From: Ptychodera flava
Lineage: Eukaryota > Hemichordata > Enteropneusta > Ptychoderidae
Direction: 5' to 3'
Assembly (NCBI RefSeq): GCF_041260155.1
Contig: NC_091935.1
Span: 39,517,303 to 39,581,302, forward strand
DNA length: 64,000 bases
A program made the position numbers and the translations under genes. Shown piece by piece: positions 1 to 39,460 of this stretch. The notes below the pieces were generated by a model. It saw nothing but the letters and a program-made list of their open reading frames with translations. It did no database searches and was not told where the DNA came from. Positions within the stretch are counted from its first letter, which is position 1; the number at the start of each line of letters is the position of its first letter.

Positions 1-146
1 TTCATGAACTTTTAGAATTAATCGGCGGTGAATATTGTTCATTATACTGATCATGTTACTTTCAATGAAGTTGCAAACATGTGGCAAAGGTTCAAATTTA
101 CATATAATGCAATATATAATGAAACACGTGAGCATTTTCAGTTCAT
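1..146 (-). mobile_element. Right-hand end of a Helentron-like element (copy A0, cut by window edge)
   Basis: This stretch matches the last ~150 bp of the three other long copies downstream, including the ACACGTGAGCA subterminal repeat at 124-134. It runs into the next copy at about 145-150 without the usual hairpin. Only the end is present because the window starts inside the element. The strand is given for the orientation in which the hairpin lies at the 3' end, as in known Helentron-derived elements. Confidence 0.6.
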
Positions 147-180
147 GTCGCAGCGATGTCTGTCTGTCTGTCCGTCTGTG

Positions 181-227
<47 letters not shown>

Positions 228-1668
228 TGGTCCATTATCTCAAAAACGGCTTATCAGATCAGAATCAAATCTGGTACATATATTCAGTTAGCAAATGGCA
301 AGAACTGATTAGTTTTTGGTGGGTGTGGCTTGCACAGTTTTTGCTCATTTGCATAATTAATGATTTTAGAAAAAATGGATATATATTAAAAACAACTGCA
401 CACTATTTTATGAGATTTGCTACAAATGTTGATCACACCAAGATATATCAGCGGTGGGAACCATGAAGGGTGACATGAAAGATAAATGCTAATTTGCATA
501 TTTAATGAACTTTCCTAACCAGGGATATATGTCTGATTTGACTCGATCAAAATTAACCAAACTTGGTATGTATATTAAAGATACTATGATTTAACATTAT
601 TGAAAGTCATTAAGCGTTTTAATTTCAGCCAATTCCTAATTTGCATATTTCATGAACTTTGTTAATTAGGAATATATATTTGAAATGACTGGACCAAAGT
701 TGATGAAACTTGCTACATGTATTGAAGCCACTATGATACAACAATTTTTAAAGTCATTAAACATTTTTACTTCAGCCAATTCTGAATTTGCATATTTAAT
801 GAACTTTCCCAATAGGGATATATATCTGAATTAACTTGATTGTAGTTATTGAAACTTACTATATACATCAAAGATACTGTGATATAACATTATTGAAAGT
901 CAAAAGATATTTTTACTTCAGCCAAACCTAATTTTAATATGAATTTTCATAATTAGGGATATATATCTGAATGGACTTGATCAAAATTGATGAAACTTGC
1001 TATGTACATTAAAGACACTATAATACAATATTATTGAAAGTCATCAAGCATTTTCTCTTCAGCCAATTCCTAATTTGCATATTTAATGAACTTTCCTAAT
1101 TAGAGATATATGTCTGAATTGACTTGACCAATGTTGACAAAATTTGCTACACATATTGCAGATACCATGATACAACATTACTGACAATCACTAAGCATTT
1201 TCACCAAAGCCACTTCCTAATTTACATATTTAATTAACTTTGCTTATTAGGTATATATACCGGGATTTACTTGATCAAAGTTGGCAAAACATGCTATGTA
1301 CATTGATGATTATACCAGGTACTAGGTCAAAACAATATCGAAAGTCATTTTAAATTTTCATGTCAGCTAATTTATAATTTGCATATCTAATGAGCTTTCA
1401 CAGCTGGGCGTATATGGCTTGAAGGACTTGGCCAACGGTAATTACACTTTCTAGATAAAGTGGTGATACAATAAGAGCAGTCAAATAACTTTAATATTTT
1501 TATTTCAGCTAATTATATATTTGTATACTTCATGACCTAATCGGCGGTGATTATTGTTCATTATGTTGATCATAATAATTTCAATGAAGTTGCAAACATG
1601 TGGCAAAGGTTCAAATTTACACATAACTTCAATATATACTGAAACACGTGAGCATTTACAGTTCATAT
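147..1668 (-). mobile_element. Helentron-like non-autonomous element, copy A
   Basis: A (TCTG)n block at 157-227 is followed by a conserved head (CTCAAAAACGGCT) and about seven units of ~147 bp, starting near 490, 638, 786, 930, 1070, 1218 and 1374. Each unit opens with a TAATTTGCATATTTAATGAA-like motif. The far end carries ACACGTGAGCA near 1644-1654 and finishes at a shared CAGTTCATATCT. Read in reverse, the order is subterminal repeat, tandem core, CAGA microsatellite. That order is known for Helentron-associated elements such as bivalve pearl and fly INE-1/DINE-1 types. There is no coding capacity: the two open frames over the microsatellite are repeat artefacts. The left hairpin is missing, replaced by fusion to copy A0. 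Confidence 0.7.
157..227. repeat. (TCTG)n microsatellite in copy A
   Basis: About 17 TCTG repeats with two interruptions (TCCG, TGTG). The same microsatellite sits at the same place in the other copies at roughly 2609-2644, 4290-4362 and 6117-6139, with different lengths, so it is part of the element and not a chance insertion. Confidence 0.9.
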
Positions 1669-2570
1669 CTTGTATTTTGATGAATGCCACCAAAAGTTGC
1701 TCTCATTATAAATATCTTAAAAGATGACTTTTATAGTTGTCACGTTCTGCAAGCACATTCTTGTAAATTAGAGTTTCACTTGAGGCTAAACTTTAGGCTT
1801 GAGTTTATGTCCTTCTGCCAACAATTTACATCACATAGCTTTTACACGTACATTACGCACGTTCTAGAAATGGTCTCAAATATGTGTGTGCCGAAATAGC
1901 TTTCAAAGATTTATTCACTTTTCACATAAATCAGGAATTGCTGTAAAAACATCACGCTCATGTACTTTTGTGGTTACAGCATACGGCAAAAATAATTTTT
2001 TAATTCACAAATTTATCCAGGCCATAATAATGATACTTCTTACATACACATGAATGATTCAGTAAAATATTTACAATATTTTAGAACTCACTTTTTACAG
2101 AGCAATAATTGTTTTAGCCAATTATGAAACCACATTGTAAAAGATACATAGCTATGTAAATTCTGCATTTTCTATCATATATAATCTATCATTCAGCTAA
2201 TGAGATTAAGATTACAGATTAAGATGAATAAAATAAGATTTAGATTACGATTAAGATGTACTTTCTTCTTTAACTTTGACAGCTTGTACACAACATGAAG
2301 AAAAAGGCCCTCTGAGTTCTGAGAACATCTCTCCCTAAAACACTGCAATGGGATGGTACTTTTGATGAAGACATTTGAAATGTACATGTTGTAGGTTAGT
2401 ATGGAATGGAAATTTAGAAAATGCAAGAGCATAACATGATGTTGTGGTTCAGACATGGATTTGAGCAAAAGTAACTTCTGCAATGTTGCCTCACATGTTG
2501 CAGCTTGGAAATAACACAAGCAGAAAGAGTAGTGGTTCATATCAGTTTATATGCACTAAAAGCCATTTTT
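1669..2570. other. Spacer between copies A and B, no gene seen
   Basis: AT-rich sequence with no splice-bounded open frame, no RNA gene and no recognised repeat. Open frames of 60-115 codons here have low-complexity or non-protein-like composition. Confidence 0.5.
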
Positions 2571-2609
2571 TGCTCACGTGTTTACACACGTGGGCATATG
2601 TCGCAGCGA

Positions 2610-2644
<35 letters not shown>

Positions 2645-4062
2645 TGGTCCATTATCTCAAAAACGGCTGATCAGATCAGAATCAAATCCGGTACATATAT
2701 TCAGTTAGCAAATGGCAAGAACTGATTAGTTTTGGGTGGGTGTGGCTTGCATAGTTTTTGCTCATTTGCAAAATTAATGATTTTAGAAAAAATGGATATA
2801 TATTAAAAACGATTACACACAATTTGATGAGATTTGCTACAAATGTTGATCACACCAAGATATATCAGCAGTGGGAACCATTAAGGGTGACATGAAAGAT
2901 AAATGCTAATTTGCATATTTAATGAACTTTCCTAACTAGGGATATATGTCTTATTTGACTCGATCAAAATTAACCAAACTTGGTATGTATATTAAAGATA
3001 CTATGATTTAACATTATTGAAAGTCATTAAGCGTTTTAATTTCAGCCAATTCCTAATTTGCATAATTCATGAACTTTGTTAATTAGGAAATGACTGGACC
3101 AAAGTTGATGAAACTTGCTACATGTATTGAAGCCACTATGATACAACATTTTTGAAAGTCATTAAACATTTTTACTTCAGCCAATTCCGAATTTGCATAT
3201 TTAATGAACTTTCCCAATTAGGGATATATATCTGAATTAACTTGATTGTAGTTATTGAAACTTACTATATACATCAAAGATACTGTGATATAACATTATT
3301 GAAAGTCAAAAGATATTTTTACTTCAGCCAAAACCTAATTTTAATATTAAATGAATTTTCATAATTAGGGATATTTATCTGAATGGACTTGATCAAAATT
3401 GATGAAACTTACTATGTTCATTAAAGACTCTATAATACAATATTATTGAAAGTCATCAAGCATTTTCTCTTCAGCCGATTCCTAATTAGAGATATATGTC
3501 TGAATTGACTTGACCAAAGTTGACAAAATTTGCTACACATATTGCAGATACCATGATACAACATTACTGACAATCACTAAGCATTTTTACTAAAGCCACT
3601 TCCTAATTTACATATTTAATTAACTTTGCTTATTAGGGATATATACCGGGATTTACTTGATCAAAGTTGGCAAAACATGCTATGTACATTGATGATTATA
3701 TCAGGTACTAGGTCAAAACAATATCGAAAGTCATTTCAAATTTTCATGTCAGCTAATTTATAATTTGCATATCTAATGAGCTTTCACAGCTCGGCGTATA
3801 TGCTTGAAGGACTTGGCCAACGGTACCTACACTTGCTAGATAAAGTGATGATACAATGAGAGCAGTAAAATAACTTTAATATTTTTATTTCAGCTAATGA
3901 CATATTTGTATACTTCATGACCTTTTAGAATTAATCAGCGGTGATTATTGTTCATTATGTTGATCATAATAATTTCAATGAAGTTGCAAACATGTGGCAA
4001 AGGTTCAAATTTACACATAACTTGAATATATAATGAAACACGTGAGCATTTACAGTTCATAT
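2571..4062 (-). mobile_element. Helentron-like non-autonomous element, copy B (full length)
   Basis: This is the clearest full copy, at about 1.49 kb. The left end is a hairpin at 2571-2596 (TGCTCACGTG, six-base loop, CACGTGGGCA). It is followed by GTCGCAGCGATG, a (TCTG)n block, the conserved head, and the ~147-bp unit array. The right end carries ACACGTGAGCA at 4038-4048 and the shared CAGTTCATATCT terminus. TGCTCACGTGTTT of the left end is inverted at the right end about 14 bases inside the terminus. It aligns with copy A along nearly its whole length with small indels, so the copies diverged recently. Confidence 0.75.
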
Positions 4063-4251
4063 CTGGTTTGTCAGAGAAAGCATATGTTTCAAAATGTGTT
4101 CCCTGTACAACCGTTTGACTCCTCTTTGCAAATGTCATAAAATTTTTCATCATGATGTTTAACACCACTGACCAAAGGTCAATTGTGTTTTTTGTGATTG
4201 GGTTGAGTTCATGTCAGACAGTAAAAATTTTCAGTAAGGGAGGAGGTCATT
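4063..4251. other. Spacer between copies B and C
   Basis: 189 bp of non-repetitive sequence between two element copies. Nothing else is recognised in it. Confidence 0.5.
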
Positions 4252-4322
4252 TGCTCACGTGTTTACACACGTGAGCATATATTGCAGCAATGTCTGTCTG
4301 TCTGTCTGTCTGTCTGTCCGTG

Positions 4323-4361
<39 letters not shown>

Positions 4362-6072
4362 TGGTTCGATATCTCAAAAACGGCTTATCAGATCAGAATC
4401 AAATCTGGTACATAGATTCAGTTAGCAAATGGCAAGAACTGATTAGTTTTTGGTGGGTGTGGCTTGCATACTTTTTGCTTATTTGCATAATTAATGATTT
4501 TAGAAAAAACGGATATTCATTAAAAACGACTACACACAATTTGATGAGATTTGCTACAAATGTTGATCACACCAAGATATATCAGCAGTGGGAACCATTA
4601 AGGGGTGGCATGAAAGAGAGTTACTAATTTGCATATTAATGAACTTTCCTAATTAGCGATATATGTCTGATTTAACTCGATCAAAATCGACCAAACTTGG
4701 TATGTATATTAAAGATACTATGATTTAACATTATTGAAAGTCATTAAGTGTTTTAACTGCAGCCAATTCTAATTTACATATTTAATGAACTTTGCTAATT
4801 AGAGATACCGGTATATATTTAAATTGACTGGACCAAAGTTGATGAAACTTGCTACATGTATTGAAGCTACTATGATACAACATTTTTGAAAGTCACTAAA
4901 GATTTTTACTTCAGCCAATTACGAATTTGCATATTTAATAAACTTTCCCAATTACGGATATATATCTGAATTAACTTGATTGTAGTTGTTGAAACTTGCT
5001 ATATACATCATAGACACTGTGATATAATATTATTGAAAATCAAAAAACATTTTTACTTCAACCAATTCTAATTTGCATATGAAATGAATTTTCATAATTA
5101 GGGATATTTATCTGAATTGACTTGATCAAAATTGATGAAACTTGCTATGTACATTAAAGACACTATAATACAATATTTTTTTTTTTTTTTTTTTATTTTT
5201 TTATTTTTTTTTTTTTTTTATTTAGTCCATCATCCAACGGGCGCTAGCCCATTTACAGGATTAGGTACCCATAACCCACTACCCCAATGGAGCACTTAGG
5301 AGTAAAGTGCCTTGCTCAAGGGCACAACACCGAGCTAGAGTCTCGAATTCACCGTCCTCCGACAGTGAATCCGCTACTCTGGATCTACCGGGACTTGAAC
5401 CGGGTCTCGAACCCACCATCCTCCAATAGTGAGTCCGTTACCCTAACCACTAGTCCACGGTGCCTCCGCTATTGAAAGTCATGAAGCATTTTCTCTTCAG
5501 CCAATTCCTAATTTGCATATTAATCAACTGAATCAACTGAACCAACTTGACCAAAGTTGACAAAACTTGCTACATATATTACAGATACCATGATACAACA
5601 TTGTTGAAAATCATTAAGCATTTTTACTTAAGCCAATTCCTAATTTACATATTTAATGACCTTTGCTTATTAGGGATATATACTGGATTTACTTGATCAA
5701 AGTTGGCAAAACATGCTATTTACATTGAAACAATATCAAAAGTCATTTCACATTTTCATGTCAGCTAATTTATAATTTGCATGTCTAATGAGCTTTCACA
5801 GCTCGGCATATATGGCTTGAAGGACTTGGCCAACGGTAATTACACTTGCTATATAAAGTGGTGATACAATGACAGCAGTAAAAGAACTTTGATATTTTTA
5901 TTTCAGCTAATTACATATTTGTATACTTCATGACCTAATCAGCGGTGATTATTGTTCATTATGTTGATCATAATATTTTCAGTGAAGTTGCAAACATGTG
6001 GCAAAGGTTAAAATTTACACATAACTGCAATATATAATGAAACACGTGAGCATTTTCAGTTCATATCTGGTT
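4252..6072 (-). mobile_element. Helentron-like element, copy C, carrying a SINE
   Basis: The hairpin TGCTCACGTG...CACGTGAGCA is perfect at 4252-4277. It is followed by the (TCTG)n block, the conserved head and the ~147-bp array. ACACGTGAGCA lies at 6042-6052 and the end is followed directly by the hairpin of copy D, giving a head-to-tail pair. A ~294-bp SINE (5176-5469) splits the fifth core unit. Without the SINE the length is about 1.53 kb, like copy B. Confidence 0.75.
5176..5469 (-). mobile_element. tRNA-derived SINE inserted in copy C
   Basis: On the minus strand the element starts GCGGAGGCACCGTGG, with a Pol III A box TGGACTAGTGG (5448-5458). B-box candidates are GGGTTCGAGAC (5403-5413) and GGTTCAAGTCCC (5390-5401). 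A central domain with CCCTTGAGCAAGGCACTTTA follows, then an A-rich tail (long T run at 5176-5221 on the plus strand). The central block resembles the conserved cores shared by several deuterostome SINE families, but I cannot name the family. Comparing with copies A and B, the insertion site is in ACAATATTATTGAAAG. No clear target-site duplication remains because the site is AT-only. Confidence 0.8.
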
Positions 6073-6735
6073 TGCTCACGTGTTTACACACGTTAGCATG
6101 CATATGTCGCAGCGATGTCTGTCTGTCTGTCTGTCTGTTGGTCCGATATCTCAAAAACGGCTGGTCAGATCAGAATCAAATCTGGTACATATATTCAGTT
6201 AGCAAATGGCAAGAACTGATTAGTTTTTGGTGGGTGTGGCTTGCATACTTTTTACTCATTTGCATAATTAATGATTTTAGAAAAAAACGGATATACATTA
6301 AAAACGACTACACAAAATTTGATGAGATGAGATTTGACTGGGATTTACTTGATCAAAGTTGGCAAAACATGCTATGTACATTGATGATTATACCTGATTA
6401 AAACAATATCGAAAGTCATTTCACATTTTCATGTCAGCTAATTTATAATTTGCATGCCTAATGAGCTTTCACAGCTCGGCATATATGGCTTGAAGGACTT
6501 GGCCAACGGTAATTACACTTGCTATATAAAATGGTGATACAATGACAGCAGTCAAAGAACTTTACTATTTTTATTTCAGCTTGTATACTTCATGACCTTT
6601 TAGAATTAATCAGCGGTGATTATTGTTCATTATGTTGATCATAATAATTTCAATGAAGTTGCAAACATGTGGCAAAGGTTCAAATTTACACATAACCGGT
6701 ATAAAATGAAACACGTGAGCATTTTCAGTTCATAT
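6073..6735 (-). mobile_element. Helentron-like element, copy D (internally deleted, ~0.66 kb)
   Basis: The hairpin at 6073-6098 (TGCTCACGTG...CACGTTAGCA) is followed by a short (TCTG)5 and the conserved head to about 6325. It then jumps to GACTGGGATTTACTTGATCA, which in full copies lies ~0.9-1 kb further on. The right end has ACACGTGAGCA at 6711-6721 and the CAGTTCATATCT terminus. This is a deletion derivative of the same family, formed between related core units. Confidence 0.7.
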
Positions 6736-7460
6736 CTAGTTTTATAGTAAGTAGGCCTATTCGTTTTACTTGAAATAATTGTCTGTTTAGTGGTTAGAAT
6801 ATGCAATGTTTCAAAGTATGATTTATAACGGAACATATTGCCGATTGGTCACGTGACTTGGCTCATATCTTAAGATGTGCCCGAATTTCGTTCCTTCGAA
6901 CGTTCCAACTTTCTTGAAATTGCTTACTTACGTACCTACCATGTTACTAGCGCCATGCCATGACATACATACATGAAACAGAGATAGAGAGACATACAGA
7001 GAGATAGAGGTGGGGTAGGGGTGGAAGATTAACCAGTAAACAAAAGTGATTATGTTTTTGATTTTTTTTACTTGACAAAAAGTCATCATGGTAGAAAGAA
7101 TACATTGATGTTTTGGTGACAGTGTCAACTGACACAATCTTTTTGAAACCTTTTTCTCTGGGCATTATACTAGCTCGTGACTATATTGAGCTTGCCAATT
7201 ACCATCTTCACGTGTTGAAAAACATATACATCTGAGAAATGTCGTCAACCTGAGAAAGAAATGTATATAGGCAACAAATTACATTTGGCACTACCTCATT
7301 GGCCCTTGAAATACTAATCCATTAGTTTGATTCAAATCTAATCAAAAATAGAAGCGTAAATCTTGAAAAGAGTAAACTCAGTACACTGGCTTTGAGATGA
7401 GGGTGGTTATAAAGGCAGTCAATTTGAAACTACGGTGACCATTATCAACATAAACATTGA
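6736..7460. other. No gene seen; spacer
   Basis: Non-repetitive sequence apart from a short AGAGAGACATACAGAGAGATAG purine tract near 6982-7009. No exon of the neighbouring minus-strand gene could be recognised here. Confidence 0.4.
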
Positions 7461-17150: not shown

Positions 17151-19480
17151 GGTAAGACTATGCAGATGTGAAAAAGCCACGCTACGGGTAAGACACACTC
17201 GATTTGCTCCGAGATTTCCAGAAATTCGACGGGTGAATGGCGTTAATTTCCGTCCAATCTCATACATGACACCTGTGAATGTATAGCGACTGCCTTAATG
17301 TCGAAAAAACGTTGAAAAACAATGTTATTTAATACAGAGAACGCATATTTTCACAAAGTGTGGGTCCAGAATGTCCATTTGACCTCTGTTCTAAATGTTA
17401 ATGTATGCTGCCAATCATGATTACTCAAATTCAAATTGCGGCCTAGGCGATCTTGATCCCTGCCGAGCACAACAAACAAAGCGTACTGACTTATCACTAA
17501 AATCACCGTTATGTACGTACCTAAACACACGCATACACAACCACATACAACGTAAACGATACGACACATGTAATGAACACGCAAGAAACGGCATTTTCTT
17601 TTTGGAGTGATTGGTGGTCTTGAAAAAAAAACGTTTTGTATGTGTTCCTGTAAAAAGTTATGAACATTGAGAGTCTTCACACGTCGTTTTGAAGGCAATC
17701 ACAGTTTCATTTTTTCCTTCAGGCATCGAAACTGAATCTTTGGCTCACATTTTGAGGAAGTACCTTTAGCATTGTGACAAGTTTGGTCATGTTTATATCA
17801 GTTGATTCAATTCAGTTGAGCTGAGTGGAATTGAAATTTCAGTGTCGATTACATCGTTGCCACTATTGCGTTGTAGATCGATCATCCATGATCATCCATA
17901 CTCGAGTACTCATCGACGACGACCACGGCCCTGCACAGCTGTCCTGGGGGACTCATCAGCGTCATTTACTTTCTTTACCAATGTATTTCAAAATATTTGG
18001 CTGACCATTGTCACAGATTACTAGTAGTTTCCTTTTGTTGAAGATTCTGGCTTACATATCGGAACAGCAAGCAGCGTATGTATAGTATGCAAATATGCAG
18101 GCTCATCTATGGAACTACGGCAACTTTTCCACAACGTCTCAGTCACATGTCATTTGCATATTACGAACGGTCGTCGATGTTTTCCGAGGTTCCGAGGTAA
18201 CCGGATATGCAATCTGCGCTCACTATACTTCGGGTCATGCATACCAAACTCTAAACTGGGGGTCGTAACGTTTTAAATCAGTTTTACTCAAAATTTCTTC
18301 ACCCTTTCCTCTGATTTGTTCGAAATGCCAAAATTACACGGAAAATAAGCTTACGAATGGGTGAAGATTTGTTTTTCAAATTCACAAGTTTTTTTCCCGT
18401 TGCAAGCTGCGTGTAACCCGGCCGTGCGAAGTACCAGTGACCGGCTATTATCTACATCACTGCCAACCAAAAAAGCCATAAAGCTACAAACAGTAGAAGG
18501 TTCTAACTTACGATTGCTTACGATCACAATCTACTACCGTCCTTAGAGACTATCATCTATTTGCTAGACTTCCCTATTTTTTATATGTCTAGTTTGCGCG
18601 CTTGTACCAAACATGAGATGTTCGGGGCTAGATTTAAACTCAATACAGTGCCCGAGGAAATTCTCTCCTGAACTAAGTCAAGACCTTCGTTTTCTATCTT
18701 CCTTCCGAAACTCTTAATATCTGTCCATTTCAACTACTGGCTTCAATCACAGCGCCTTCACATTCAAATCACCCGCTGCTGTTGTGAGAAAGTATCCGTT
18801 CCGTGTTGATGAAAGCCGGGGTTGAAACCAGGGGGTTGAAAACCGGGTCCCATTTGAAATCGCAACGGAATATGCACACATCTACATAGACGCAAAAAGG
18901 TTAGCAGAAATTCAGAGATGTATTGAAAGCCATACATCGTTGCTGTTTATTGAGCAAATTGTATGATGGAAATTCGTCTCCGAACTCGGCGATACATGAG
19001 CGGCCATTCTGTTTCATAACTTCCTATACATGTATTTCTATTGCATACCACAGCGGTCATCGCATCGCTGTCTATCGAACCGCAAAACGACTGTGATTTG
19101 AATTCAGTAAATTTTGATTGGATTCGAACTCACAACGTACGGCATACAGTCACCTTAGTAGCGAAGAAATCACAGTCAAGGAAGGTCTCAGGCTGTCGAC
19201 CAGACCACAGCCCCTCGACCAGTAGGCCTACTCCACCCTAGTTATAATGTAGTCTCGAATTGTGTGAACCCATGGATGTAAAAATCCATGGTGAACCTAC
19301 ACACTCCGTAATATTCAGGCAGAGGTGATAATCGGTAGTTCCTGGTGTAAAAGATAGTTTATGTTTCTCTGATAAGCCAACGACTAAGCAAGTGTTTAAC
19401 CATCCCGCCCAGTGTTTGCCATCAACCGACGTCACTACGACGTTGCCTATTGTGCGCCCACGGCGCTGGACTTTCCTCTT
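17151..19480. other. Inserted DNA of unknown nature between LINE halves
   Basis: 2.3 kb lies between the broken LINE endonuclease and the left end of the satellite-bearing element. No protein domain is recognised. Two octamer-type motifs (ATGCAAAT near 18089 and ATTTGCAT near 18154) are present. A Pol III-like pair at 19116-19222 is listed separately. Confidence 0.4.
19110..19225 (-). mobile_element. Possible tRNA-like SINE fragment
   Basis: On the minus strand a good A box (TGGTCGAGGGG, ~19207-19217) is followed ~90 bp later by a near-perfect B box (GAGTTCGAATCC, ~19115-19126). The spacing is too long for a normal tRNA without an intron, so a SINE relic is more likely than a tRNA gene. Confidence 0.3.
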
Positions 19481-19689
19481 TAAGGTGCGGAATTGTGTTT
19501 ATCGTTTTTAGAAAGTTTAGCTTGAAGTTTAGAAAGCTAGTTTAGATTTGTCTACATCTACATCTAAATTTTCTAAATTAGCAGAAAGTTTAGAAAGCTA
19601 ATTTTGGTTCGTCTACATCTACATCTAAATGTACTAAATTAGCCTAACTATCCGATATTTAGCCGAGCTAAAAATCGTTCTAAACTTTC

Positions 19690-20160
19690 TAAATTAGCTC
19701 ACATGTAGCCGGAGTTTAGATCGGACTTCCCCAGCCAAACTTTTACTCGGTGATATATCCGATATTTAGCCGAACTGAACTGTACTATCAAAATTGGCCC
19801 AAATAGAAAGCTTTTATGGGCTTTCTGGCAGACTAAGAAAAACATTTTGGGGTGATATATCCGATATTTAGCGCGATAATTATCGTTCTAAACTTTATAA
19901 ATTTGATGCTATTTAGCTCGGGCTTTCTGGCAGAGCAAGGAAAACATTTTGGGGTGATATATCCGATATTTAGCGCGATAATTATCGTTCTAAACTTTAT
20001 AAATTTGATGCTATTTAGCTCGGGTGTTCTGGCAGACCGAGAAATAATTTCGGGTGATATATCCGATATTTAGCGCGATAATTATCGTTCTAAACTTTAT
20101 AAATTTGATGCTATTTAGCTCGGGCTTTCTGGCCGACCAAGTGACGCGATAAAGATCGGA
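19690..20160 (-). repeat. 102-bp satellite, short inverted array (~4 units)
   Basis: Units carry GGTGATATATCCGATATTTA, GCGCGATAATTATCGTTCTA, AACTTTATAAATTTGATGCT and ATTTAGCTCGGGCTTTCTGG. This is the reverse complement of the long array to the right. Units at the left edge are decayed and merge into AGAAAGTTTAG-type short repeats. Confidence 0.85.
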
Positions 20161-20249
20161 TATATCATCCCAGAACATTTTTCTAGGTCCACTAGAAAGC
20201 TCGAGCTGAAGAGCGGCAAATTCACGGAGTTTAGAACGATAATTAAATG

Positions 20250-21685
20250 CCAGACTTCATCTTTTACTGTGAGCACGCGTCTGGGGGTGGCAGTCTGGCC
20301 GGCAACACGTTTGATAAGGCTATTAACATTAACATAATCCGCACAAATGGACGCGATCGTCGTGGAACTAAGATTATCTCAACACACCTTGGCCATTTGA
20401 AATGTAGCTGTATGGTTACATTGTTTTACATTCGTCTCCACTCCGCGTATCTGGTTTATTTGTCATAAACACTAGCGGCGGCTATTTGACAGTCTTTGTT
20501 TTGACACGCAAATAAAATTCACAATTTTTCGTCAGCTTACTCACTGTCACATTCTTCTGGACCTTCTTAGTGACATTCAACTTCTGGCCTACGTGTGAAC
20601 TGGATGACGTCGCATTTGCATCCTCAACTTCTGGCTTATTCCAATTGTCAATTATATACGAGGTACTATTCAGTGAGGTCTATGGGACAAGTCGATTTTG
20701 AGCTTTGATTTTTCAAACATACCTCTTTGGGAAACAAATAGTACTTTCCTGGTTCTACAAGACTGCTCCTACAAGCTCAAACGTTTTACTCTAAACACGT
20801 GGGAAATAAAGATAACAACAAAAATGATGTAACGACGTTCAGTCCGATATTTTCCGGAAAAAAAGTTTTCACTTAAGGCCTGACTTTCTAAACTACAGCT
20901 AATTTCTAAATCTACAACGCTATTTTGAAAGCGATAATTATCTTTTTTGATCCTATCACGGTCCCTGATCCTATATATCCTTGGAAAACGTTTTTCACCC
21001 AAGGCTCGACTTTCAAAATTACTACATCTTACTGACAGCACTTGCCGCGGCTCACGCGCACCTTGGAGGTGGCAGCTTGGCCGGCAACACGTTTGATAAG
21101 GCTATTAGCGTTAATTTGCACCGTTTAATCTGCACCAAATGGACGCGATCGTCCTGGAAATAAGATTATCTCAACACACCTTGGTCATTTGAAATGTGGC
21201 AGTATGGTTACATTTATTTATATTCGTCTTCACTTTGCATATCTGGTTTATTTGTCACGGACACCAGCGGTAACTATTTGACAGTCTTTGTTTTAGACGC
21301 GCAAAAACAAATTGACAATTTTTCTTCAACAAGATCGTTTCAATGCTTACATACTTACTGCCACTGTTCTCTACTTCCCGACATTCAACTTCTTGCCAGT
21401 TGCAATGATCAATCATATAGGAGGTACTATTTACGGAAGTCTGGGGAAAAAGTAACATTGAGATTTGGATTCTAAGACTTTCCTCTTATAAATTAACAAC
21501 GTCAAGCCCATTCCAACTTCTGGCCTATTCAAGTTGTCAATTATATACGAGGTACTGTTCAATGAGATCTATGGGACAAGTCACTTTTGAGCTTTGAATT
21601 TTCAAACATGCCTCTTGGGGAAACAAATAGTACTTTCCTGGTTCTACAAGACTGCTCCTACAAGCTCAAACGTTTTTTTTTCGAT
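20250..21685. repeat. Direct duplication inside the satellite element
   Basis: Two segments, ~20250-20790 and ~21030-21680, share long blocks in the same order: GGCCGGCAACACGTTTGATA, ATGGACGCGATCGTC, AAGATTATCTCAACACACCT, TTTGACAGTCTTTGTTTT, and CTACAAGACTGCTCCTACAA. They differ by many substitutions and small indels, so the duplication is not very recent. No protein is encoded. Confidence 0.75.
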
Positions 21686-21689
21686 CAGC

Positions 21690-24600
21690 CAGAGCCCTAT
21701 CTAAATAGCGGCAAATTTATAAACTATAGAACGATAATTAGACGCGCTAAATATCGAACACATCACCCCACTCCCAAATTTTTTCTCGGTCCGCCATAAA
21801 GCCCGAGCTAAATAGCGGCAAATTTATAAAGTTTAGAACGATAATTATCGCGCTAAATATCGGATATATCACCCAAATTTTTTTTACCTGGTCGGCCAGA
21901 ATGCCCGAGCTAAATAGCATCAAATTTATAAAGTTTAGAACGATAATTATAGCGCTATAATTAACGTTTTTCACCCAAGGTTCGACATTCGAAATTACTA
22001 CATCTTACTGTGAGCACTTGCCGCCCTGGAAGATATCCTATAATGCATTGCTGTAAGGCCAACGCCTAAACCGGAAATAGGCTCATTTGGCGTCAAGACA
22101 CCAAAGCGAGCGGATCGGCTTCGCTCATCCAATCTTGCCGCATATGGCAAGCAATTGCGATAATGACGAATGCCTTATTTCCAAAATTAGTAAATAACAT
22201 GCTTTATCCATCCCCACTTCGGTGAGACACGTTTCCTAGTCAGTAAATGACAATGGGGCCGTGGTACCCCAGGCCTCCCAAAAGTATCAGATTGTTGTAG
22301 CGAATTCGAAGCAAGTAGCTTTTCTCACAGAAACAAGTTGAATATTAATGTACTCAGTAAAACGTTGTCAGGTACATGTAACATGAACAGTGACTGAGGT
22401 CGAAGTGACTAAAGGCACCGGAATTGATTTGACCACAAACAAGCCCGAGCTAAATAGCATCAAATTTATAAAGTTTAGAACGATAATTATCGCGCTAAAT
22501 ATCGGATATATCACCCCAAAAGTTTTTTCTTGGTCGGCCAGAAAGCCCCAGCTACATAGCATCAAATCTATAAAGTTTAGAACGATAATTATCGCGCTAA
22601 ATATCGGATATATCACCCCAAATTTTTTTTTTCTTGGTCGGCCAGAAAGCACCAGCTAACGATAATTATCGCGCTAAATATCGGATATATAAAACTGTTT
22701 CCTGGTCGGCCAGAAAGACCGAGCTAAATAGCATCAAATTTATAAAGTTTAGAACGATAATTATCGCGCTAAATATCGGATATATCACCCCAAAATTTTT
22801 TTCTTGGTCGGCCACAAAGCCCGAGCTAAATAGCATCAAATTTATAAAGTTCAGAACGATAATTATCGCGCTAAATATCGGATATATCACCCCAAAATTT
22901 TTTTCTTGGTCGGCCAGAAAACCCTAGCTAATTAGCATAAAATCTTTAAAGTTTAGAACGATAATTATTGCGCTAAATATCGGATATATCACCCCAAAAT
23001 TTTTTTCTTGGTCGGCCAGAAAACCCTAGCTAAATAGCATCAAATTTATAAAGTTTAGAACGATAATATCGCGCTAAATATCGGATATATCACCCCAAAT
23101 TTTTTTCGTGGTCGGCCAGAAAGCCCCACCTATATAGCATCAAATCTATAAAGTTTAGAACGATAATTATCGCGCTAAATATCGGATATATCACCCAAAT
23201 TTTTTTTCTTGGTCTGCCAGAAAGCCCCAGCTAAATAGCATCAAATTTATAAAGTTTAGAACGATAATTATCGCGCTAAATATCGGATATATCACCCAAA
23301 ATTTTTTTCTTGGTCGGCCAGAAAACCCAGCTAAATAGCATCAAATTTATAAAGTTTAGAACGATAATTATCGCGCTAAATATCGGATATATCACCCCAA
23401 AATTTTTTTCCTGGTCGGCCAGAAAACCCTAGCTAAATAGCATCAAATTTATAAAGTTTAGAACGATAATTATCGCGCTAAATATCGGATATATCACCCC
23501 AAAATTTTTTTTCTTGGTCGGCCAGAAAGCCCCAGCTAAATAGCATCAAATCTATAAAGTTTAGAACGATAATTATCGCGCTAAATATCGGATATATCGC
23601 CCCAAATTTTTTTTTCTTGGTCGGCCAGAAAGCCCCAGCTAAATAGCATCAAATTTATAAAGTTTAGAACGATAATTATCGCGCTAAATATCGGATATAT
23701 CACCCCAAAATTTTTTTTCTTGGTCGGCCAGAAAGCCCCAGCTAAATAGCATCAAATTTATAAAGTTTAGAACGATAATTATCGCGCTAAATATCGGATA
23801 TATCACCCCAAATTTTTTTCTTGGTCGGCCAGAAAGCCCGAGCTAAATAGCATCAAATTTATAAAGTTTAGAACGATAATTATCGCGCTAAATATCGGAT
23901 ATATCACTCCAAAATTTTTTTCTTGGTCGGCCAGAAAACCCTAGCTAAATAGCATCAAATTTATAAAGTTTAGAACGATAATTATCGCGCTAAATATCGG
24001 ATATATCACCCCAATTTTTTTCCTGGTCGGCCAGAAAGCCCCAGCTACATAGCATCAAATCTATAAAGTTTAGAACGATAATTATCGCGCTAAATATCGG
24101 ATATATCACCCCAATTTTTTTTTTCCTAGTCGGCCAGAAAGCCCCAACTACATAGCATCAAATCTATAATGTTTAGAACGATAATTATCGCGCTAAATAT
24201 CGGATATATCACTCCAAAATTTTTTCTTGGTCGGCCGGAAAGCCCGAGCTAAATAGCATTAAATTATAAAGTTTAGAACGATAATTATCGCGCTAAATAT
24301 CGGATATATCATCCCCAATTTTTTTTCCTGGTCGGCCAGAAAGCCCCAGCTAATAGCATCAAATTTATAAAGTTTAGAACGATAATTATCGCGCTAAATA
24401 TCGGATATATCACCCCAAAATTTTTTTCTTGGTCGGCCAGAAAGCCCCAGCTAAATGGCATCAAATTTATAAAGTTTAGAACGATAATTATCGCGCTAAA
24501 TATCGGATATATCACCCCAATTTTTTTCGGTCGGCCTGGAAGCCCCAGCTAAATAGCATCAAATTTATAAAGTATAGAACGATAATTATCGCGCTAAATA

Positions 24601-25300
24601 TCGGATATATCACCCCAAATTTTTTTCTTGGTCGGCCAGAAAGCCCCAGCTAAATAGCATCAAATTTATAAAGTTTAGAACGATAATTATAACGTTAAAT
24701 ATCGGATATATCACCCCAAAATTTTTTTTCTTGGTCGGCCCGGAAGCCCCAGCTAAATAGCATCAAATTTATAAAGTATAGAACGATAATTATCGCGCTA
24801 AATATCGGATATATCACCCCAAAAATTTTTTTCTGGTCGGCCAGAAAACCCCAGCTAAATAGCATCAAATTTATAAAGTTTAGAACGATAATTATCGCGC
24901 TAAATATCGGATATATCACCCCAAAATTTTTTTCCTGGTCGGCCAGAAAACCCTAGCTAAATAGCATCAAATTTATAAAGTTTAGAACCATAATTATCGC
25001 GCTAAATATCGGATATATCACCCCAATTTTTTTTTTCTTGGTGGGCCACAAAGCCCCAGCTACATAGGATCAAAGAACGATAATTATCGCGCTAAATATC
25101 GGATATATCACCCCAAAATTTTTTTTCTTGGTCGGCCAGAAAGCCCCAGCTAAACAGTGGCTAATTTATAAAGTTTAGAACCATAATTAGACGCGCTTAA
25201 TATCGGATATAACAACCCAAATTTTTTTCTCCGACTGCCAGAACGCCTTAGCTAAATAGCGGCAAATTTATAAAGTTTAGAACGATAGTTTGGTAGTTGT
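21690..25300 (+). repeat. 102-bp satellite, long array (~30 units)
   Basis: Units contain CTAAATAGCATCAAATTTAT, AAAGTTTAGAACGATAATTA, TCGCGCTAAATATCGGATAT, ATCACCCC, a T run of 6-10 and GGTCGGCCAGAAAGCCC. The spacing was counted as 102 bp between 22731, 22833 and 22935. The array has a few units at 21690-21960, a 470-bp break of unrelated DNA, then a continuous run from about 22437. Most units differ by only a few bases, mainly in T-run length. Reverse frames such as IYPIFSAIIIVLNFINLMLF are by-products of the repeat. Confidence 0.9.
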
Positions 25301-25399
25301 TTAGCTGTGTTTAGCCACTTTAGCTACATTAGCTCCCATAGTCAATACATGGAGTTTAGAAACGCATCAGTGTAAAAGACACAATTCCGCACCTTACTC

Positions 25400-25860
25400 T
25401 CTTTTTAGTGAGTCACTTTTTGAAAAAATTCAAAGTAATTTTACAGATGCAGAACTCATCCTAGGAGGGGATTTCAATTTTGTACAGAATGTTCACATTG
25501 ATAAGACTGGCGGAAGGCCATCCGCGCATTTCCGATGTTGACATATTGTCCGTCAAAAATCAGAAATGTTGGATTTAGCTGACGTGTGGAGGGTTTTGAA
25601 TCCGAACACTCGTAGATACACATGGAGGCAAAAGAAGCCTCCTGTATACTGTACATTTGATTTTTTCCTTTTGTCGTTCAATCTCCTGAGTCAAACTGTC
25701 AAAGCAAATATTGGTCCAGGTTTTCCTACAGATAATTCTCTTGTTGCTATTTCTATAACCTTGGACAAGGTTAAATGAGGTTCAGGTTTCTTGAAACTGA
25801 ATTGTTCTCTCTTGTCTGATATGGATTACATGAATCTCATCAATCCAACATGGAGGTAGT
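25400..25860 (+). pseudogene. L1/Tx1-type LINE ORF2, end of endonuclease domain
   Basis: The frame reads SESLFEKIQSNFTDAELILG and continues GGDFNFVQN, the catalytic GDFN motif. After a stop, LDLADVWRVLNPNTRRYTWR and TFDFFLLSFN follow (the S/T-W and DFFL motifs near the endonuclease C-terminus), then DMDYMNLINPTW. It fits as the missing part of the domain that stops at 17150, in the same orientation. In-frame stops show decay. Confidence 0.7.
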
Positions 25861-25867
25861 AGCTCGT

Positions 25868-26028
25868 CTGTGGACGCTGTCACCAGATTATCACCGGATT
25901 AACTTTGACAAAGTCAACAACAAGCGCACCAGCAAGGTATAACTGAAGATTATACCTTGTTGGTGCGCTCGTTGTTGACTTTGTCAAAGTTAATCCGGTG
26001 ATAATCTGGTGACAGCGTCCACAGATTA
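25868..26028. mobile_element. Near-perfect foldback MITE, ~160 bp, inside the LINE
   Basis: The arms start CTGTGGACGCTGTCACCAGA and continue TTATCACCGGATTAACTTTG, ACAAAGTCAACAACAAGCGC and ACCAGCAAGGTATA. The right arm repeats them in reverse complement with one or two mismatches around a short centre. The very high arm identity points to a recent insertion or gene conversion. It separates the endonuclease and reverse-transcriptase parts of the broken LINE. Confidence 0.8.
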
Positions 26029-33442: not shown

Positions 33443-34575
33443 GTCCAGTCACAGGTCCAGTAGGCATAATTTGTGATGATTTTTTTCCTATAATTATCAT
33501 AAAAAATAATTATGAATATTAATAATTATTAATATGAATGTTACAGAATATTAAAACTTTTTTACACACAATGTCGTCTACTTTGTGTAAATGCTGTCTG
33601 GAAACTCCATTGTTGTGATAATTATGATTATTGATAAATTATGATTATGATTATTTACACATTGTAATGTGCCTATGTGAACAACCCCTCTGGAAACCCT
33701 TATATAGTTTCACAATCTATGCCAAAATATACAAGTGACACCATTGCCCTGGTTCAGTCTACGGCGAGAGTTACCATTGCCCAGGTTCAGTCTACGGCGA
33801 GAGTTACTACACAGTGTATTATAATATATACACTGTGTAGTAACTCTCGCCGTAGACTGAACCTGGGCAATGGTAACTCTCGCCGTAGACTGAACCTGGG
33901 CAATGGTGTCACTTGTATATTTTGGCATAGATTGTGAAACTGTATGAGCGTTTCCAGAGGTTGTTCACATAAGCACATTACAATGTGTAAAATATGACTT
34001 TATTAATCATATCATAATTTATTCATAATCATAACTATCAAAACAATGGAGTGTCCAGATGGCATTTACACAAAGTAGACGACATTGTGTGTAAAAAAGT
34101 TTAATATTCTGTAACATTCATATTAATAATTTATTAATATTCATAATTATTTTTATGATAATTATAGGAAAAAATCATCACAAATTATGCCTACTGGACC
34201 TGTGGTCCAGTAGGCATAATTTGTGATGATTTTTTTCTTGTTATTATCATAAAAAATAATTATGAATATTAATAAATTATCAATATGAATGTTACAGAAT
34301 ATTAAAACTTTTTTACACTCAATGTCGTCTACTTTGTGTAAATGCTGTCTGGAAACTCCACTGTTGTGACAATTATGATTATTAATAAATTATGATTATG
34401 ATTAATAAAGTCATATTTTACACATTGTAATGTGCTTATATGAACAACCCTCTGGAAACCCTTATATAGTTTCACAATCCATGCCAAAATATACAAGTGA
34501 CACCATTGCCAAGGTTCAGTCTACGGCGAGAGTTACCATTGCCCAGCTTCAGTCTACGGCGAGAGTTACTACACA
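33443..34575. repeat. Three-armed giant palindrome (arm, inverted arm, arm)
   Basis: One ~370-bp arm occurs three times in alternating orientation: ~33450-33822, inverted ~33827-34202, and direct again ~34203-34575. The centres are the AT-rich ACACAGTGTA...TACACTGTGT near 33824 and CTACTGGACC-TGT-GGTCCAGTAG near 34202. Each arm starts GGTCCAGTAGGCATAATTTG and ends GAGAGTTACTACACA. Each holds a duplicated CAGTCTACGGCGAGAGTTAC motif near the end. The arms are nearly identical. It is probably a foldback transposon (arms 1+2) with an extra half copy. Confidence 0.85.
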
Positions 34576-34665
34576 TACACTGTGTATATACAACTCTGTA
34601 GAGAGGTCCATAAAGTCTTTTTCATAAGGGATAGAAATATACCATGGAAATGTACCAAAACTCAC

Positions 34666-36437
34666 CCTGTATGCATGGTGAATCACGTGTCTCGGTGTCT
34701 TTAAGGAATGAGATGCACTAGGTCTTTGAGCATACAGTGTAACTTCCATATCAACAGGGTCATCTGGGTCACACACACCTGCCTGTAAATCAAGCACACA
34801 CAGTAATTGTTAAGACAAATTACACATAAGATCTAAAACTTAATTGGTTTAATCTGTTGTTTCTATAATTCAGATGACACTTTGTCAAATACCATTACAC
34901 ATTCGAATTGACATTATGGGAAAGTTCCATTAACTTAGGAATACCCCACTTCCCTACTTGGTTATCAGAATGATTAATCTCTATGTCAACATTTGCAAAC
35001 AGATTATCTTGAGTGAGTCTTTTCAGACCTGATGTTCCTGTCATAGCACCAGCTGGATAAGATAAACGTGACAATGGAATATTAACACCTTGGGGGTTAA
35101 AGTCTTCTGTTTGTCACCCAAGTTGGTCAGGCAAGGACCTGGGTTTCAGGTACCATTCAAGTTAATGCAGTCTTTCCCTAATGAACCCTGTACAGACTGT
35201 TCAATTCAATTTACATTTTTGTTTGCATCAAAATCATGAAAATGTTTCCCAGATAAAAAATTCAAAGAAATGGCAAATATTCATGCATCAGACAACCAAT
35301 AAAACAACAGAGAATGCCAATTCCCTCTCAATCTTTAAACATGAACCAAAAAAAAAATAGTATTTCAGCGTACAGTCCATAAAGTTGTAGGATCAGAGTA
35401 ATGGTGGATCTGTACAGAGAGATAAAGTTATTTGTAGTGTAAGCCTCTCAGCCTATCGCACTGTTGAAAGTAACTAAAAAGAGCTTACATGTGATGATCT
35501 GTACGTCACGACAAAAATCACAAATTTCACAAAAATATTCTTATCCCTACTAATATCGGTACACCTACTAATAGATCTGTACATATATACTGATCAATGG
35601 CAAAATAAAAGCCAAGTTTTCGGACATCAGCAGCATTCAGATACAGCATTTAAAACCTACCTGTTGTGTTTACCATTGAATACCAGGAAACTTCACTGTT
35701 GTGTTTACCGTTGAATACCAGGAAACTTCACTGTTGTGTTTACCGTTGAATACCAGGAAACTTCACTGTTGTGTTTACCGTTGAATACCAGGAAACTTCA
35801 CTGTTGTGTTTACCATTGAATACCAGGAAACTTCACTGTTGTGTTTACCGTTGAATACCAGGAAACTTCACTGTTGTGTTTATATGTTGTGATATATCCA
35901 TGGATGACAATATACCCGCCAATTGCTCTCACCAAATCCAGAGGGTCCATCTTCACAGGTCCACCTTTCCATTGACGTAAATTGGTACATTCAGGGTACT
36001 GATTCGTTACTGACACTGTAGGGAAATATAATGGTATTTAATGGCATTCACAACTTAGCACAAGTCCCTGTCTCTTGCTTCCTGGGACAAAATCCACTAA
36101 TATGTATGTAATTACAATCATGCTATTGAAAAAATCAGGGTTTGACTATTGTTTTTTTCGTTTAAAAACAGTTACAAAGAGATGTATACCGGGTACGTGA
36201 ACACTTTTTTAATTAATGGCAAGTTTCTTTCTACATCCTCATTTCTAATTTTGTCATGACAAAATTGATCATACAATAGATGTGTATTGTTCTTGTGTGT
36301 CAGTGGTCATTGATGGTGGTGCCGCCGGCAGTGTGTATTAACTATTCACAGTATACATGACCACACTCACCATTGAAAACAATAGGGTTGGACCACACCA
36401 CAGTGGTATGTCTGGGTGTTATATTTTGCTGCCAGAC
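34666..36437 (-). CDS. Unidentified host gene, three internal exons
   Basis: Three minus-strand exons have matching phases. The first, 36371-36437, reads [20 protein letters not shown] then FN and has a donor GTGAGT. The second, 35933-36015, reads [20 protein letters not shown] then KMDPLDL, with acceptor CCCTACAG and donor GTGAGA. The third, 34666-34782, is exactly 39 codons, reads [20 protein letters not shown] then [19 protein letters not shown], and has donor GTGAGT. The composition is protein-like, with N-linked glycosylation-type NIT and NVS sites and cysteines that suit an extracellular or luminal domain. I do not recognise the family. The upstream end of the first exon sits at the edge of a 78-bp minisatellite whose units carry a copy of the AG-GTCTGGCAG acceptor region. 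The intron after the second exon holds a 35-bp minisatellite. Confidence 0.5.
34876..35117 (-). CDS. Open frame of unknown nature between exons
   Basis: A minus-strand frame runs for ~77 codons ([20 protein letters not shown], then [20 protein letters not shown]) with protein-like composition. Its phase does not fit between the neighbouring exons of the host gene and no strong donor is visible. It could be an alternative exon or an unrelated relic. Confidence 0.2.
35662..35880. repeat. 35-bp minisatellite, ~6 units
   Basis: Units of CTGTTGTGTTTACCGTTGAA plus TACCAGGAAACTTCA are almost identical, differing by CCATT/CCGTT. They lie ~50 bp inside the intron after the KMDPLDL exon. Confidence 0.95.
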
Positions 36438-39400
36438 CTAACATCACAGTTACTGTTCATATTGCAGAGACTTATACAGCCTGGAAGGTCATGAACTTTG
36501 CCACCAGACCTTGGTACATCACAGTTACTGTTGATATTGCAGAGGAGACTTATACAGCCTGGAAGGTCATGAACTTTGCTGCCAGACCTTGGTACATCAC
36601 AGTTACTGTTGATATTGCAGAGGAGACTTATACACCCTGGAAGGTCATGAACTTTCCTGCCAGACCTTGGTACATCACAGTTACTGTTGATATTGCAGAG
36701 GAGACTTATACAGCCTGGAAGGTCATGAACTTTGCTGCCAGACCTTGGTACATCACAGTTACTGTGATATTGAAGAGGAGACTTATACACCCTGGAAGGT
36801 CATGAACTAATTGCTGCCAGACCTTGGTACATCACAGTTACTGTTGATATTGCAGAGGAGACTTATACACCCTGGAAGGTCATGAACTTTGCTGCCAGAC
36901 CTTGGTACATCACAGTTACTGTTGATATTGCAGAGGAGACTTATACACCCTGGAAGGTCATGAACTTTGCTGCCAGACCTTGGTACATCACAGTTACTGT
37001 TGATATTACAGAGGAGACTTATACAGCCTGGAAGGTCATGAACTTTGCTGCCAGACCTTGGTACATCACAGTTACTGTTGATATTGCAGAGGAGACTTAT
37101 ACAGCCTGGAAGGTCATGAACTTTGCTGCCAGACCTTGGTACATCACAGTTACTGTTGATATTGCAGAGGAGACTTATACACCCTGGAAGGTCATGAACT
37201 TTGCTGCCAGACCTTGGTACATCACAGTTACTGTTGATATTGCAGAGGAGACTTATACACCCTGGAAGGTCATGAACTTTGCTGCCAGACCTTGGTACAT
37301 CACAGTTAATGTTGATATTACAGAGGAGACTTATACACCCTGGAAGGTCATGCGAACTTTGCCACCAGACCTTGGTACATCACACTTACTGTTGATATTG
37401 CAGAGGAGACTTATACACCCTGGAAGGTCATGCGAACTTTGCTGCCAGACCTTGGTACATCACAGTTACTGTTAATATTGCAGAGGAGACTTATACACCC
37501 TGGAAGGTCATGAACTTTGCTGCCAGACCTTGGTACATCACAGTTAATGTTGATATTACAGAGGAGACTTATACACCCTGGAAGGTCATGCGAACTTTGC
37601 TGCCAGACCTTGGTACATCACAGTTACTGTTGATATTGCAGAGGAGACTTATACACCCTGGAAGGTCATGCGAACTTTGCTGCCAGACCTTGGTACATCA
37701 CAGTTACTGTTAATATTGCAGAGGAGACTTATACCCTGGAAGGTCATGAACTTTGCTGCCAGACCTTGGTACATCACAGTTACTGTTGATATTGCAGAGG
37801 AGACTTATACACCCTGGAAGGTCATGAACTTTGTTGCCAGACCTTGGTACATCACAGTTACTGTTGATATTGCAGAGGAGACTTATACACCCTGGAAGGT
37901 CATGAACTTTGCTGCCAGACCTTGGTACATCACAGTTACTGTTGATATTGCAGAGGAGACTTATACAGCCTGGAAGGTCATGAACTTTGCTGCCAGACCT
38001 TGGTACATCACAGTTACTGTTGATATTGCAGAGGAGACTTATACAGCCTGGAAGGTCATGAACTTTGCTGCCAGACCTTGGTACATCACAGTTACTGTTG
38101 ATATTGCAGAGGAGACTTATACACCCTGGAAGGTCATGAACTTTGCTGCCAGACCTTGGTACATCACAGTTACTGTTGATATTGCAGAGGAGACTTATAC
38201 AGCCTGGAAGGTCATGAACTTTGCTGCCAGACCTTGGTACATCACAGTTACTGTTGATATTGCAGAGGAGACTTATACAGCCTGGAAGGTCATGAACTTT
38301 GCTGCCAGACCTTGGTACATCACAGTTACTGTTGATATTGCAGAGGAGACTTATACAGCCTGGAAGGTCATGAACTTTGCTGCCAGACCTTGGTACATCA
38401 CAGTTACTGTTCATATTGCAGAGACTTATACAGCCTGGAAGGTCATGAACTTTGCTGCCAGATCTTGGTACATCACAGTTACTGTTGATATTGTAGAGGA
38501 GACTTATACAGCCTGGAAGGTCATGAACTTTGCTGCCAGACCTTGGTACATCACAGTTACTGTTGATATTGCAGAGGAGACTTATATAGCCTGGAAGGTC
38601 ATGAACTTTGCTGCCAGACCTTGGTACATCACAGAGTTACTGTTGATATTGCAGAGGAGACTTATACACCCTGGAAGGTCATGAACTAATTGCTGCCAGA
38701 CCTTGGTACATCACAGTTAATGTTGATATACAGAGGAGACTTATACACCCTGGAAGGTCATGAACTAATTGCTGCCAGACCTTGGTACATCACAGTTAAT
38801 GTTGATATTACAGAGGAGACTTATACACCCTGGAAGGTCATGAACGTTGCTGCCAGACCTTGGTACATCACAGTTAATGTGATATTACAGAGGAGACTTA
38901 TACACCCTTGAAGGTCATGAACTTTGCTGCCAGACCTTGGTACATCACAGTTCCTGTTGATATTGCAGAGGAGACTTATACACCCTTGAAGGTCATGAAC
39001 TTTGCTGCCAGACCTTGGTACATCACAGTTACTGTTGATATTGCAGAGGAGACTTATACACCCTGGAAGGTCATGAACTTTGCTGCCAGACCTTGGTACA
39101 TCACAGTTCCTGTTGATATTACAGAGGTGACTTATACAGCCTGGAGGTCATGAACTTTGCCGCCAGACCTTTGGTACATCACAGTTCCTGTTGATATTAC
39201 AGAGGAGACTTATACACCCTGGAAGGTCATGAACTTTCCTGCCAGACCTTGGTACATCACAGTTCCTGTTGATATTGCAGGGGAGCCTAATACAGCCTGG
39301 AAGGTCATGAACTTTGCTGCCAGACCTTGGTACATCACAGTTACTGTTGATATTGCAGAGGAGACTTATACACCCTGGAAGGTCATGAACTTTGCTGCCA

Positions 39401-39460
39401 GACCTTGGTACATCACAGTTCCTGTTGATATTGCAGAGGAGAATGTGGAGATGTTATCAG
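36425..39460. repeat. 78-bp minisatellite, ~39 units, long stop-free frames on both strands
   Basis: Unit spacing of 78 bp (26 codons) was counted from 36551 to 36629. A plus-strand unit reads TYTAWKVMNFAARPWYITVT then VDIAEE. The minus strand reads CNINSNCDVPRSGSKVHDLP then GCISLL. Frames of 197 and 338 codons (+) and 234 codons (-) stay open only because the unit length is divisible by three. Units with small length changes (CATGCGAACTTT, GAACTAATTGC) break them. Neither side has a start, signal sequence or exon that would make it a gene, so I call it a minisatellite in an intron. Confidence 0.85.

Follow-up and report, generated by a model that had tools for sequence, protein, structure and literature searches.

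This locus raises the question of whether a tandem satellite, arranged in two opposite orientations between a pair of short terminal inverted repeats (TIRs), forms part of a mobile element and, if so, what may have shaped the satellite inside it. The window analysed here, by which we mean the whole 64-kb stretch of DNA (37.8% GC), is eukaryotic in character: it contains LINE fragments with an L1-type endonuclease, a reverse transcriptase (RVT_1 match, E 2.5e-31) and many dispersed and tandem repeats, and an Rfam scan of it returned zero matches at gathering level. An earlier note on this DNA had described a 5.9-kb TIR-bounded unit with inverted satellite arrays, and our analysis confirmed that observation, recovering the 18-mer pair, the opposite arrays and the duplicated spacer. 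The best reading of the locus is that of a satellite-carrying mobile unit bounded by 18-bp TIRs.

Other repeats were seen in the same window. The region 1-6743 contains a recurring sequence, in which a 147-bp tandem array comes after a (TGTC)n run and which we take to be reminiscent of Pearl/Helentron-type elements, and 36425-39442 is occupied by a 78-bp satellite (38.7 copies, 95% matches) with long open frames on both strands. A dense palindromic block at 33450-34590, with 33-bp repeats in opposite orientations, consists of two overlapping palindromes of ~775 bp, each 91.6% self-complementary. Another unit, at 55267-56459, likewise has inverted arms made of tandem repeats: these arms, 114-172 bp long and built of roughly 28-bp repeats with CGACCTGCG motifs, lie around a ~840-bp middle; GTAGGG is found immediately outside the ends of this unit (55267-55272 and 56454-56459) as a possible 6-bp target duplication.

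Organization of the element

The element measures ~5.9 kb (19481-25396), with its 102-bp satellite reversed at the left and forward further right. Its parts, together with the adjoining right flank, are as follows.

19481-19498, + strand: left TIR, TAAGGTGCGGAATTGTGT (TIR proper 19483-19498 if the target duplication is TA)
19499-19648, unstranded: left end domain, 150 bp, with a 61-bp motif present twice at 19525-19643
19649-20141, - strand: left satellite block, degenerate outer units followed by three with a perfect 34-nt core
20145-20245, + strand: diverged forward satellite unit, after the head-to-head flip
20246-20787, + strand: spacer module copy 1, boundaries approximate
20987-21676, + strand: spacer module copy 2, interrupted internally by an additional segment (~21340-21513), boundaries approximate
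21693-21957, + strand: short forward satellite block, ~2.5 units
21963-22024, + strand: third module copy, truncated to its start, 62 bp, 91.9% to 20987-21048
22025-22432, unstranded: segment of ~400 bp with no BLAST match elsewhere in the window
22433-25290, + strand: main forward satellite array, with edge units in addition to 27 contiguous monomers (22479-25179)
25291-25378, unstranded: right end domain, 88 bp
25379-25396, - strand: right TIR, perfect, inverted match to the left 18-mer
25397-25775, + strand: right flank, outside the element, decayed L1-type LINE endonuclease fragment (8sp5_A, PF14529)

As had been claimed before, the 102-bp arrays lie in opposite orientations: the satellite is reversed at 19649-20141, its orientation flips head-to-head at ~20142, and the forward blocks lie to the right. 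The left and right blocks are inverted relative to one another, with the 25 longest of 502 inverted pairs being 87-95% complementary, and the arms are strongly unequal in length. The spacer modules are flanked by satellite blocks. The arrays had also been pictured as facing each other across a spacer that holds a duplicated segment. While the duplication is real (20282-20534 against 21064-21328, 84.5%; 20625-20787 against 21514-21676, 93.3%), the layout is asymmetric, with the flip near its left end and three forward blocks.

Terminal inverted repeats and target site

With up to 3 mismatches allowed, the 18-mer TAAGGTGCGGAATTGTGT has exactly two occurrences in the window, and these form a perfect inverted pair. 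This bears out the earlier claim of perfect 18-bp TIRs (19481-19498 and 25379-25396), and the check that had been proposed for inverted 18-mer pairs, run within the window, returned this single perfect pair. That the 18-mers might have arisen by chance, an option raised at the same time, is contradicted by dinucleotide shuffles of the window, which gave a mean of 0.08 18-mer matches and two matches in 0 of 100, and by a Markov simulation of the 9.9-kb neighbourhood, in which the chance of an inverted 18-mer pair, extrapolated from 14-mers, was ~0.002. Pairing between the two ends of the element halts after 18 bp.

The outermost TA of both 18-mers is palindromic, giving a perfect TA flank on each side at a shift of 2. 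Since TA is its own reverse complement, this outermost TA can be the target duplication, which leaves a 16-bp TIR, AGGTGCGGAATTGTGT. Judged from the letters of the ends, the target duplication is probably TA and the TIR probably this 16-bp sequence, although the TA on both sides sits inside the palindromic end of the repeat and constitutes weak evidence of a duplication because it belongs to the repeat itself. The flanks read TTAA on the left and TTAC on the right, a fit of 3/4 rather than the TTAA on both sides expected of a piggyBac/Kolobok-type element; a TTAA target duplication with one later substitution is possible, and less likely than TA. No target duplication of 8-12 bp was found within a cut-off of 2 mismatches, and the 8-10 bp duplication of a Mutator-type foldback element is thus absent from the flanks. 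The best longer match, a 7-bp duplication (5/7), was taken as not significant.

Tc1/mariner elements target TA, and piggyBac/Kolobok-type elements target TTAA. No superfamily had been evident from the ends in the earlier note, and none is assigned here, but the palindromic TA (or TTAA/TTAC) provides a clue, in that ends of this sequence point to a TA- or TTAA-target superfamily.

Coding capacity and flanking sequence

Stop-to-stop ORFs inside the element reach 110 aa at most, and a Pfam scan of 10 of its 70 ORFs of at least 40 aa, including the longest, found none above the curated cut-off. A match to AGMP_C in an element ORF (E 0.042; 14.3 bits, cut-off 28.3) falls mostly in a satellite frame and was taken as chance. 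Across the window, no transposase match was found among the 15 of 21 ORFs of at least 120 aa that were scanned, the other 6 lying within the 78-bp satellite; the autonomous relative that had been sought was not seen among these ORFs.

To the right of the element, the decayed LINE fragment matches the LINE-1 endonuclease chain 8sp5_A at E 0.0034 and PF14529 at 12.1 bits, under the cut-off of 27.4. The right boundary had earlier been regarded as fixed by a resumed LINE frame. On its own the LINE is not sufficient for this, as detectable L1 similarity begins ~12 codons inside the right flank and the right-flank frame stays open through the TIR back to 25305. No family match was found in the left flank among 10 of 17 ORFs of at least 50 aa compared with Pfam, or with a 26-residue end peptide. 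When left frames were joined to the right flank, one of the three brought PF14529 to 13.0 bits, up from 12.1 and against a cut-off of 27.4, and the match was lost with the other two and with the element's own frame; in the joined peptide, the LINE-1 endonuclease chains align to right-flank residues only. From these comparisons, insertion of the element into a LINE is plausible. As the left flank yielded no LINE, the empty site and the continuity of the LINE are unproven.

Near or within the LINE-derived right flank lies a 160-bp hairpin (25867-26025; 95% self-complementary), possibly a snap-back MITE. In the left flank, at 19050-19250, a tRNA-like B-box (reverse complement GTTCGAATCC) can be made out by eye, which suggests a reversed SINE; the region has no Rfam match at gathering level.

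A nearly invariant core in the satellite monomer

The 27 contiguous monomers of the main array were aligned, with none dropped. A 34-nt stretch, AACGATAATTATCGCGCTAAATATCGGATATATC, was found to equal the consensus in 22 of the 27, compared with 4-5 of 27 for five windows of equal length in columns 52-101; in these exact-match counts a gap scores as a mismatch, and a few of the monomers are cut short outside the core. With gaps ignored, the core is identical in 23 of 27 monomers and the other windows in 4-7 of 27. When the A/T run (columns 41-51) is set aside, 5 of the 34 core columns are variable, compared with 33 of the other 57 (Fisher p=6e-5). The core window was picked after the data had been seen, and the shuffle test takes the best 34-column window: one equally quiet arose in 3 of 10,000 column shuffles, or in 5 of 10,000 without columns 41-51. 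All of these statistics serve as a guide only, since adjacent columns, like related monomers, are not independent of one another.

The element contains 23 forward and 3 reverse copies of the exact core (26 in total), with 0 copies elsewhere in the window. The core includes the palindromes CGATAATTATCG and GATATATC and carries 4 of the 5 CpGs of the 102-bp unit. Diverged units at block edges (20145-20245, 21939 and 25180) are also without the core, and the constraint on it is therefore not general.

Conservation of this kind would fit a repeated protein-binding site, by analogy with that described for the Galileo transposase. A fuller proposal can be built on it, in which the unit is a TA-target foldback-like element whose 26 near-invariant cores make up an expanded transposase-binding array, so that the satellite would have grown and been conserved by selection for transposition instead of being carried as passive cargo; we put this forward tentatively, and think it on balance rather unlikely. 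For this one step there is an alternative with a real, if less than even, chance of being correct, namely that the core is kept for a host reason (as the site of a host factor, or through local homogenisation by gene conversion) and not for transposase binding. The invariance of the core by itself points to no particular binding protein, and monomer identity shows no clear drop with distance along the array (in an array-monomer alignment leaving out 9 of 35 rows), as expected under homogenisation. However, homogenisation would be expected to act across the entire unit, whereas variability in the core is far below that of the remainder; moreover, the core is common to both arms.

Nature and origin of the unit

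Taken as a whole, the unit is likely to be a non-autonomous DNA transposon of the cut-and-paste type, functioning in the manner of a foldback element with the satellite arrays as its arms. Its TIRs enclose an internal tandem array, and no coding capacity was seen between them (Pfam scan of 10 of the 70 ORFs of at least 40 aa), as is characteristic of satellite-carrying non-autonomous TIR transposons, and it possesses the inverted arms of tandem repeats that mark foldback elements, though of very unequal lengths. Foldback elements also have long continuous TIRs up to their ends, where this element has 18 bp. Because end complementarity stops there and the end domains, 150 bp on the left and 88 bp on the right, are unrelated, we describe the element as foldback-like in its working and do not class it as a foldback. 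Its perfect 18-bp TIRs also separate it from Helitrons and Helentrons, rolling-circle elements that are not known to end in perfect cut-and-paste TIRs. The unit is probably both real and mobile. The previous reading of a satellite locus as a mobile unit thus survives as the best account of perfect TIRs that hold arrays, with the qualification that, as one copy is in hand within the 64-kb window, we infer its mobility.

Under the transposon reading, a transposase made elsewhere would act in trans, cutting at the TIRs, and insertion would take place at TA or, less likely, TTAA. Growth of the satellite, chiefly in the right arm, would have taken place inside the element through slippage or unequal exchange, and the spacer module may have been duplicated when satellite blocks recombined with one another. 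By analogy with Galileo and Tetris, the inverted arms would hold many copies of a putative protein-binding site, the conserved core, most likely for the transposase, and arms bearing the core may have gained a transposition advantage of the kind proposed for those two elements.

It is improbable that a pre-existing genomic satellite array was instead captured or invaded by a short MITE-like element, in which case the TIRs would be mobile and the inverted layout would reflect a local inversion. This would be consistent with end domains that are mutually unrelated inside the 18 bp (96/500 shuffles as good) and with a right end domain that has no significant stretch in common with the satellite (207/500 and 65/500 shuffles as good). 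The left end domain, however, contains a stretch that resembles part of the satellite (score 17.0; 4/500 shuffles as good; best of 8 comparisons), and both arms are built of one unit in mirror orientation. Furthermore, no array lies outside the element within the 64 kb, where no further satellite units were detected by self-BLAST, by the exact core or by a 35-nt anchor with as many as 9 mismatches allowed; 102-bp arrays lacking these ends, which had been named as a possible refutation, were accordingly not found in the window. A reverse-strand match to the anchor at 24192 was spurious, the anchor being palindromic. Very improbable is a non-mobile origin, as a rearranged and partly inverted satellite locus with the 18-mers left over from two copies of some unrelated short dispersed repeat: the unit is present as a single copy in the window and the right-hand LINE has no trace in the left flank, so that it may not be a clean insertion, but the 18-mers are perfect and inverted, mark the limits of the repeat block and do not recur in the window.

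Comparison with known satellite-carrying elements

Satellites that grow in transposons, and MITEs and foldback elements that carry satellites, form an established class represented by Tetris, Galileo, miDNA4, Xstir and the oyster Helentrons. A packaged satellite locus, considered rarely described in the earlier note, has in fact been described repeatedly (Tetris, PMC4079207; Galileo, PMC3688188; Xenopus miDNA4 and Helitron/Helentron, PMC12628747). In the titles and opening abstract lines of the open-licence literature matches listed, neither this element nor one that combines a TA target with satellite arms of opposite orientation is described, and when four end and core pieces were matched against literature text only the 10-mer TAAGGTGCGG matched, in 14 papers, with no title on such a repeat. 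Exact TIR, 30-nt satellite and spacer pieces (3 patterns) gave 0 matches in the viral collection viral_contigs, as did exact satellite and TIR pieces (2 patterns) in the prokaryotic collection genome_contigs, results that have little bearing on a eukaryote.

Tetris, a foldback transposon of Drosophila virilis, is described as non-coding, with inverted arms that contain a ~220-bp tandem repeat in variable copy number, a repeat that also forms satellite arrays, and with a middle domain of variable content (PMC4079207). The same source gives TIRs of up to 1,735 bp and target duplications of 8-10 bp, as in the Mutator type proposed for Tetris, and its authors suggest a binding-site advantage for the arms and an origin of the repeat from the outer TIR domain (PMC4079207). 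By this description, the present element is like Tetris in being non-coding and in having inverted arms of a tandem repeat, and unlike it in that its perfect TIR is 18 bp, its arms are very unequal and its duplication is TA or TTAA at most. For Galileo (P superfamily, Drosophila), THAP domains are reported to have their binding sites in the tandem repeats within its long TIRs (PMC3688188), and transposase-coding sequence is described (PMC3688188, PMC3573991). While internally repetitive inverted arms are, by description, common to both, no transposase-coding sequence was seen in the 5.9-kb element (10 of 70 ORFs of at least 40 aa scanned).

In Xenopus tropicalis, miDNA4 is described as a Tc1/mariner-type MITE with an internal satellite present as a monomer or as a variable array (PMC12628747, PMC9659126); Xstir, also from Xenopus, is placed in the satellite-in-transposon class. 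An internal satellite array is, by description, shared with miDNA4, whereas review accounts of miDNA4 mention no inverted arms such as those of the 5.9-kb element. Helentron/Pearl-type elements of oyster and clam are described as having internal satellite-like arrays (PMC7492417, PMC12628747, PMC9659126). These resemble the present case, by their description, in that short satellite arrays are packaged in a mobile element (dispersed in the Helentrons), and differ in that here a perfect TIR bounds the unit.

As a satellite-in-transposon example, the element adds one case to a recognised class. Should the core be the binding site of the mobilising transposase, the element would be a case of a satellite monomer shaped by selection on transposition, and it would offer a direct test of satellite birth and spread from transposon arms. 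In summary, this is probably a lopsided new example of a satellite-carrying non-autonomous TIR transposon, whose principle is known from Tetris, Galileo and Xenopus miDNA4, and its newly noted feature, which is worth testing, is the nearly invariant 34-nt core.
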